From contig CALAXT010000043.1 of NCBI GenBank assembly GCA_937895435.1, positions 1 to 64,000 on the forward strand: DNA of 64,000 nt, in the 5' to 3' direction. A program made the position numbers and the translations under genes. Shown one piece after another: positions 46,731 to 46,793 of the stretch. The number at the start of each line of letters is the position of its first letter. Position 1 is the first letter of the stretch. Source of the DNA: an uncultured Paracoccaceae bacterium. GTDB lineage: Bacteria > Pseudomonadota > Alphaproteobacteria > Rhodobacterales > Rhodobacteraceae. The notes under the pieces are model-generated. The model ran no database searches. It saw nothing but the letters and a program-made list of their open reading frames with translations, and was not told the origin of the DNA.

Positions 46731-46740
46731 GATCGATCCG

Positions 46741-46792
46741 TTTCCCGGCCGATCTGGCCGTGTTGGCGCGCCATGGCGCGTGAAAGGGGAAA
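46741..46792 (-). other. Folded 63-nt gap in place of bchH
   Basis: TTTCCC (46741-46746) pairs with GGGAAA (46787-46792) and encloses two perfect hairpins, CGGCC/GGCCG (46746-46760) and CGCGCC/GGCGCG (46767-46780), so the RNA can form a three-way junction. It spans almost the whole bchB-bchL gap. Function unknown. Confidence 0.55.
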
Positions 46793-46793
46793 A

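Follow-up and report, generated by a model that had tools for sequence, protein, structure and literature searches.

A bchH gene outside the bchFNB-LM operon of a Rhodobacteraceae genome lies behind two adjacent PpsR-type sites

The window analyzed here, a stretch of 64,000 nucleotides on contig C43, holds the photosynthesis gene cluster of a genome (G000) of 2,659,221 bases in 81 contigs that is 99.69% complete and 0.53% contaminated; from its named relatives we infer that it belongs to the family Rhodobacteraceae. Since ribosomal proteins, SecY, RNA polymerase alpha and a class-II tRNA synthetase of the threonyl type are encoded on the same contig as the cluster, this contig looks chromosomal. 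We describe the bchFNBHLM operon of this cluster, from which bchH is missing, and a single intact bchH on another contig, C9, which stands behind two adjacent TGT-N12-ACA sites. Coordinates without a prefix are those of the window; L005 denotes the locus of the relocated gene.

Results

The remaining genes of the operon lie on the minus strand in the order bchF, bchN, bchB, bchL, bchM. The first gene, bchF (49791-50324; Pfam PF07284 (BCHF), 208 bits), is followed by an intact bchN (48481-49794), which sits inside a longer open frame reaching 50388. Subunits B and L of the dark-operative protochlorophyllide oxidoreductase (DPOR) are encoded by bchB (46794-48395; TIGR01278, 574.5 bits; start set where the family-model matches begin) and bchL (45834-46730; TIGR01281, 432.3 bits), and the run ends with bchM (45163-45837; TIGR02021, 264.5 bits); all three are intact. 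The bchB stop (TAA) occupies 46796-46794 and the bchL ATG 46730-46728, leaving a spacer of 63 nt (46731-46793, minus strand) at the position that bchH holds in relatives. A preliminary description made from the sequence alone had reported this gap without bchH between 46794 and 46730; the coordinates were borne out, and NCBIfam models name both flanking genes. The gene order that defines a bchFNBHLM operon, bchB-bchH-bchL on a single strand, is absent from G000.

The junction is spanned by a mini-open reading frame (mini-ORF) of 25 codons (46727-46804, minus strand), identified by reading the sequence. Its ATG lies inside the end of bchB, at the position where relatives begin bchH, and it closes on the bchL start (ATGA). 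Translational coupling of bchB and bchL may persist through the mini-ORF. Descent of its codons from bchH is a conjecture, with no significant similarity between the junction and bchH. Separately, the bchN frame stays open upstream across all of bchF, which is read in another frame, and so gives rise to a misleading open reading frame of 635 aa (48481-50388); a bchF-bchN fusion was considered and rejected, as bchF forms a separate frame.

A search of the whole G000 genome for the CobN/Mg-chelatase family returned two proteins. One is an intact BchH of 1186 aa (about 1,190 aa had been anticipated), encoded at C9:24853-28413 (L005:7854-11414) between rppH and dnaE2. It scores above the curated cut-offs of NF009942 (2010.1 bits; cut-off 1166) and TIGR02025 (1417.4 bits; cut-off 829), narrowly misses a third BchH model, NF009140 (1264.2 versus a cut-off of 1300), and falls below the cut-offs of all CobN models. 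This BchH has the conserved residue at 279 of 283 positions without variation among 116 relatives, and its family membership predicts that it binds protoporphyrin IX and acts with BchI and BchD in Mg insertion. The second family member, on C23, was rejected as a BchH: it is a CobN (NF008973, 1623 bits; TIGR02257, 1035 bits) and is 31% identical to the BchH on C9. The preliminary description had allowed that bchH was moved, replaced or lost. Loss from the genome is ruled out by the intact copy on C9, and the bchB remnant described below favors a move, with replacement left as a rival.

The relocated bchH sits amid housekeeping genes. On one side of it, C9 carries leuC, rlmH, gpmI and genes for an M23 peptidase and a ctpA-like protease, followed by rppH; on the other side lie a dnaE2-like polymerase gene, an mltB-like gene and rnr. 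In the relative G092, the order leuC-rlmH-gpmI-M23-ctpA-rppH-dnaE2 is identical and the matches to rppH and dnaE2 are 117 bp apart with no bchH between them; this junction is an empty site. Among the seven relatives with longer flanks, dnaE2 follows rppH in G092 and in G150 (about 0.95 kb apart in the latter), mltB follows rppH in G362, and none of the tested neighbors follows it in the other four. No significant similarity was found between the 3′ spacer of the relocated bchH and the old junction (277 of 2000 shuffles), nor between its 3′ and 5′ spacers and the G092 empty site (1257 and 112 of 2000 shuffles). Repeats flanking the relocated gene, of the kind that mark a mobile element, were limited to short, imperfect pairs, and no transposase was present among the scanned neighbors.

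We then compared the bchB-bchL junction across relatives by searching 394 family genomes for BchH and BchL, with a single genome taken per genus in an even draw from a larger group. BchL was present in 161 genomes. The preliminary description had given bchH between bchB and bchL as the norm. In line with it, bchH directly precedes bchL in 158 of these 161 genera; two are undecided, and G000 is the only clear exception (158 of 159 decided genera keep bchH adjacent upstream of bchL). The 158 are made up of 133 genera whose bchH lies on the same strand within 2.5 kb upstream of bchL, two additional sets of 12 and 9 genera, G240, and three split by contig ends (G008, G166 and G205), in which the end of bchH still adjoins bchL. 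In the undecided genomes, G182 and G122, bchH and bchL each lie at a contig edge in orientations fitting adjacency. Three genomes with BchH and no BchL match at the limit used (G209, G280 and G367) fall outside the count of 161. The bchL match of G240 (G240:C181:8179-8964) is listed with one internal stop, TAA. Among the papers listed by literature searches on bchH, no report of the arrangement in G000 was found.

In a separate collection of 80 named loci, which may overlap with the genomes of the family sample, bchB precedes and bchL follows bchH in 69. Six of the others have one of the two neighbors and a contig edge, Thiospirillum (L070) has bchL only, and in four neither gene is within reach: three from Ectothiorhodospira (L072, L074 and L075) and one from a Phreatobacter metagenome-assembled genome (L081). 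The bchH of L072 stands beside nspC and that of L081 beside bchG, near pufC; TGT-N12-ACA sites lie at −305 and −158 (L072) and at −443 and −345 (L081) relative to the start of the bchH match.

For sequence comparison, 129 of the 133 adjacent loci were prepared and 120 retrieved, 117 of them with all five proteins. The bchH gene of relatives overlaps the end of bchB, and in 108 of the 120 its ATG precedes the end of the bchB stop by 11 nt and falls within the last BchB codons (the other 12 have no ATG at that place). We found that the 17 nt before the relocated bchH ATG match the counterpart at the end of G000's own bchB at 14 of 17 letters, in exact register. Read in the bchB frame, the relocated tail gives EAKSRYVR-stop, versus EAKAHYAR-stop in the native bchB. 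Among 266,752 positions on the two strands of C9 and of 84 kb of C43, only the native bchB site (17 matches) and the bchH site (14 matches) reach 14. The alignment score of the tail was reached by 2 of 5000 letter shuffles and, among 2842 segments of the window sequence, by one, which may be bchB itself. Because the bchB tail matches in exact register, a standard bchB-bchH junction is the most likely source of the relocated bchH.

The rppH-bchH intergenic region is 281 bp long, with a G+C content of 44.8%. After rppH comes a terminator-like hairpin (10 bp plus a T tract; L005:7644-7667; −18.4 kcal/mol, z −3.67), followed by two TGT-N12-ACA sites and then bchH. Site 1 reads TGTTCGATTTAATTTACA (L005:7688-7705) and site 2, 8 bp further on, TGTAATTTTTAATTGACA (L005:7714-7731); a look for such sites near a relocated bchH had been proposed at the outset. 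When the intergenic region was shuffled 20,000 times with dinucleotides preserved, 33 shuffles contained two sites and 3 contained a pair 0-12 bp apart. Within the ≤300 bp upstream of bchH in relatives, one site was present in 1 of 120 loci and two in none. Single sites occur at chance level (11 in the window versus 10.85 expected; 5 in L005 versus 3.85) and so provide no evidence. Genome-wide, we found five pairs 5-9 bp apart and none with the reversed pattern. Four of these lie at the start of bchG, in a crtD/crtE-like intergenic region, before bchC and before bchH; the fifth falls within an AFG1-ATPase frame on C75 (C75:20987-21031) and is taken as chance. The bchC pair has the same 8 bp spacing as the bchH pair, and the bchG pair (52953-52994; 6 bp apart) follows ppsR.

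Site 2 resembles the sites upstream of bchF. A TGT-N12-ACA site before bchF in G000 (50368-50385, minus strand) shares 16 of 18 letters with it, and a second site lies in the same upstream region (50523-50540). Site 2 ends in the −35-like hexamer TTGACA; so do 110 of the 117 bchF-nearest sites of relatives, the commonest of which (14 of 117) differs from site 2 at a single letter. In 18 of 117 relatives, a site somewhere upstream of bchF agrees with site 2 at 17 of 18 letters. This comparison covered 118 of the 120 loci, 117 of which have a site. By its sequence, then, the downstream candidate operator of bchH is of the bchF-proximal type. The bchF-upstream sites of relatives are uniform in themselves, with the TGTAA...TTGACA form in 113 of 118 loci (L119-L238). 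According to the available text of PMC10890935, a bchF-lacZ fusion is repressed by PpsR in Dinoroseobacter shibae, where the predicted −35 region overlaps with one motif; a bchH::Tn mutant of that species is listed there as beige. Of the features by which PpsR/CrtJ promoters are recognized, two tandem sites upstream of the gene and PpsR encoded in the same genome were found for the relocated bchH; as to overlap of a site with a −35/−10 promoter, site 2 ends in TTGACA, but no sigma-70-like pair was detected there.

Between the site pair and bchH there is also a 33-codon frame, MSKRSLDD... (L005:7738-7836), whose ATG would lie upstream of transcription. As a BchF remnant it was a weak candidate: its best match, to 1 of 119 sequences (G365), was reached by 5 of 500 shuffles and its mean score by 81 of 500. 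That this leader is a BchF start is a conjecture.

Elsewhere in the cluster, ppsR (51472-52905, plus strand; TIGR02040, 492.3 bits) encodes the repressor expected to read these sites. Beside it lies a ppaA/aerR-like gene (50597-51421, plus strand), named by position, with a B12-binding score of 26.7 bits that is below the Pfam cut-off of 32.1. The genes bchO (56927-57829), bchD (57833-59581, minus strand) and bchI (59584-60588, minus strand), the latter two encoding the partner subunits of Mg-chelatase, had been described as intact, and all three are indeed full-length frames in the window. BchD scores 483.7 with TIGR02031, below the cut-off of 499.55, and 688.9 with NF009943, above the cut-off of 571. 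The full-length frames of all checked bch genes lend indirect support to the earlier suggestion that the strain is probably still phototrophic. Two PucC-family proteins (PF03209) are encoded in the cluster, at 43727-45184 after bchM and at 53877-55181 after bchG; the place after bchM is presumably that of lhaA.

Discussion

We consider it probable that bchH was moved or copied out of bchFNBHLM and now has PpsR-type operators of its own, an operon split that is confined, as far as sampled, to a single lineage. The moved piece would have begun inside the end of bchB, because the last codons of bchB still precede the bchH ATG, and would have been copied or moved to the chromosomal site between rppH and dnaE2. 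The copy of bchH in the operon would have been cleanly deleted, with copying presumably first and deletion later. At its new place the gene would be preceded by an upstream region of its own that carries a pair of neighboring PpsR-type operators, with a −35-like TTGACA at the end of the second. PpsR binding and promoter activity are predicted at this site; PpsR would repress the relocated bchH along with the cluster, and the level of bchH could be tuned apart from that of bchFNB-LM. The earlier expectation that relocation would uncouple bchH from PpsR control finds no support in the sequence, given the close TGT-N12-ACA pair before the gene, which is arranged as at other promoters of the cluster. 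Because bchH has its own pair of candidate sites, PpsR control was probably kept; relocation did, however, end the gene's co-transcription with the operon and its overlap with bchB.

Several results weigh against this reading. At the old junction no remnant of bchH was detected (equaled by 1127 of 2000, 531 of 2000 and 93 of 300 shuffles). The length of 17 nt for the tail comparison was chosen after the match had been seen, which flatters its significance; over 24 nt the bchB tail still matches at only 14. With a weight matrix built from the tails of relatives, the relocated tail scores −22.4 versus a minimum of 25.4 among the relatives, and 13 of 5001 ATGs score as well as it does. Upstream of bchH, no promoter-like pair turned up at the two sites in a simple sigma-70 scan, and a terminator scan of the whole scanned sequence gave 7 hits versus 5.3 expected, such that the hairpin rests on its folding z-score. 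The relocated protein itself has a somewhat raised rate of change at invariant columns (1.4% versus a 95th percentile of 0.7%) and an end branch slightly longer than usual (0.34, against a median of 0.21); the other cluster proteins show this less (0.28; median 0.22). Poor placement of G000 in the trees of both BchH and the other cluster proteins leaves room for a copy from a near relative. Finally, the genomes compared include no other species of the genus of G000.

A more specific origin is conceivable, and we put it forward tentatively: bchH may be a self-sufficient PpsR unit, derived from a duplicated piece that ran from the bchF promoter to the bchB tail and bchH and from which bchFNB was then deleted. 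If this were true, the H subunit of Mg-chelatase, the entry to the pathway, would be set apart from the DPOR genes under the same repressor, and translation of bchB and bchL would stay coupled through the mini-ORF at their junction.

Xenologous replacement, whereby the C9 bchH would have come from another Rhodobacteraceae cluster together with the donor's bchB end and the native gene would then have been lost, seems unlikely to us. Transfer of bchH as a single gene has been reported for Dinoroseobacter shibae (PMC6052148, in the text available), and in FastTree phylogenies the sisters of G000 differ, with BchH beside L193/L144 (0.83) and the other four proteins beside L134/L226/L197 (0.88), both with moderate to weak support. 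However, more careful trees of 29 rows (out of 118, one only 17% filled for BchH) left G000 unplaced both for BchH and for the remaining cluster proteins, with no well-supported conflict; the trees agree only on broad placement. The 75% identity of BchH to its nearest relative also falls within the range of the other cluster proteins (BchB 79%, BchN 83%, BchL 93% and BchM 73%). Composition is likewise similar between C9 and C43, with GC fractions of 0.566 and 0.572 and a mean tetranucleotide distance of 0.173 between the contigs (0.145 within C9 and 0.189 within C43). We regard vertical relocation as more likely than transfer from a near relative.

An artefact of assembly or binning, with bchH dropped from the cluster contig or C9 derived from another organism, is highly improbable. 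Although the assembly is a draft, each of the two junctions is internal to a contig and flanked by intact frames. A single match to rppH occurs in G000 at E ≤ 1e-30, and the second match to dnaE2 is only 33% identical. Contamination is low (0.53%), the composition of C9 matches that of C43, and the single BchH of the genome lies on C9, behind a tail that matches G000's own bchB. That the arrangement is ordinary in the family is the least credible explanation of all: four of the 80 named bchH loci, outside the family, have neither bchB nor bchL in reach, but 158 of the 159 decided family genera keep the standard order and 69 of the 80 named loci read bchB-bchH-bchL.

Relocation of bchH as we propose it bears on a gene order that is strongly conserved in purple bacteria, and the lineage of G000 offers a natural test of whether the operon serves co-translation or common repression. 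Should PpsR bind at the new position, co-regulation can persist without co-transcription. For annotation the case is a warning that a bchH "missing" from the cluster does not equal loss of phototrophy.

Among known systems, the closest comparison is the bchFNBHLM operon of phototrophic Rhodobacteraceae, a block called conserved in the available text of published surveys (PMC3176799, PMC6052148). G000 keeps the remaining gene order and the TGT-N12-ACA sites before bchF, but differs in that bchH is missing and bchL directly follows bchB. The upstream region of the relocated bchH resembles tandem PpsR/CrtJ promoters in its paired TGT-N12-ACA sites, with bchC of G000 showing the same 8 bp spacing, whereas bchH has no pair of its own in 120 relatives. 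Single photosynthesis genes outside the cluster have precedents: in the text available from PMC3176799, some photosynthesis genes of Loktanella vestfoldensis SKA53 and crtD of Congregibacter litoralis lie elsewhere. The bchH of G000 is like these cases in standing alone outside its cluster, and differs from them, as far as that text goes, in being bchH, which is not named there, and in having a candidate repressor pair at its new site, where none is reported for them.
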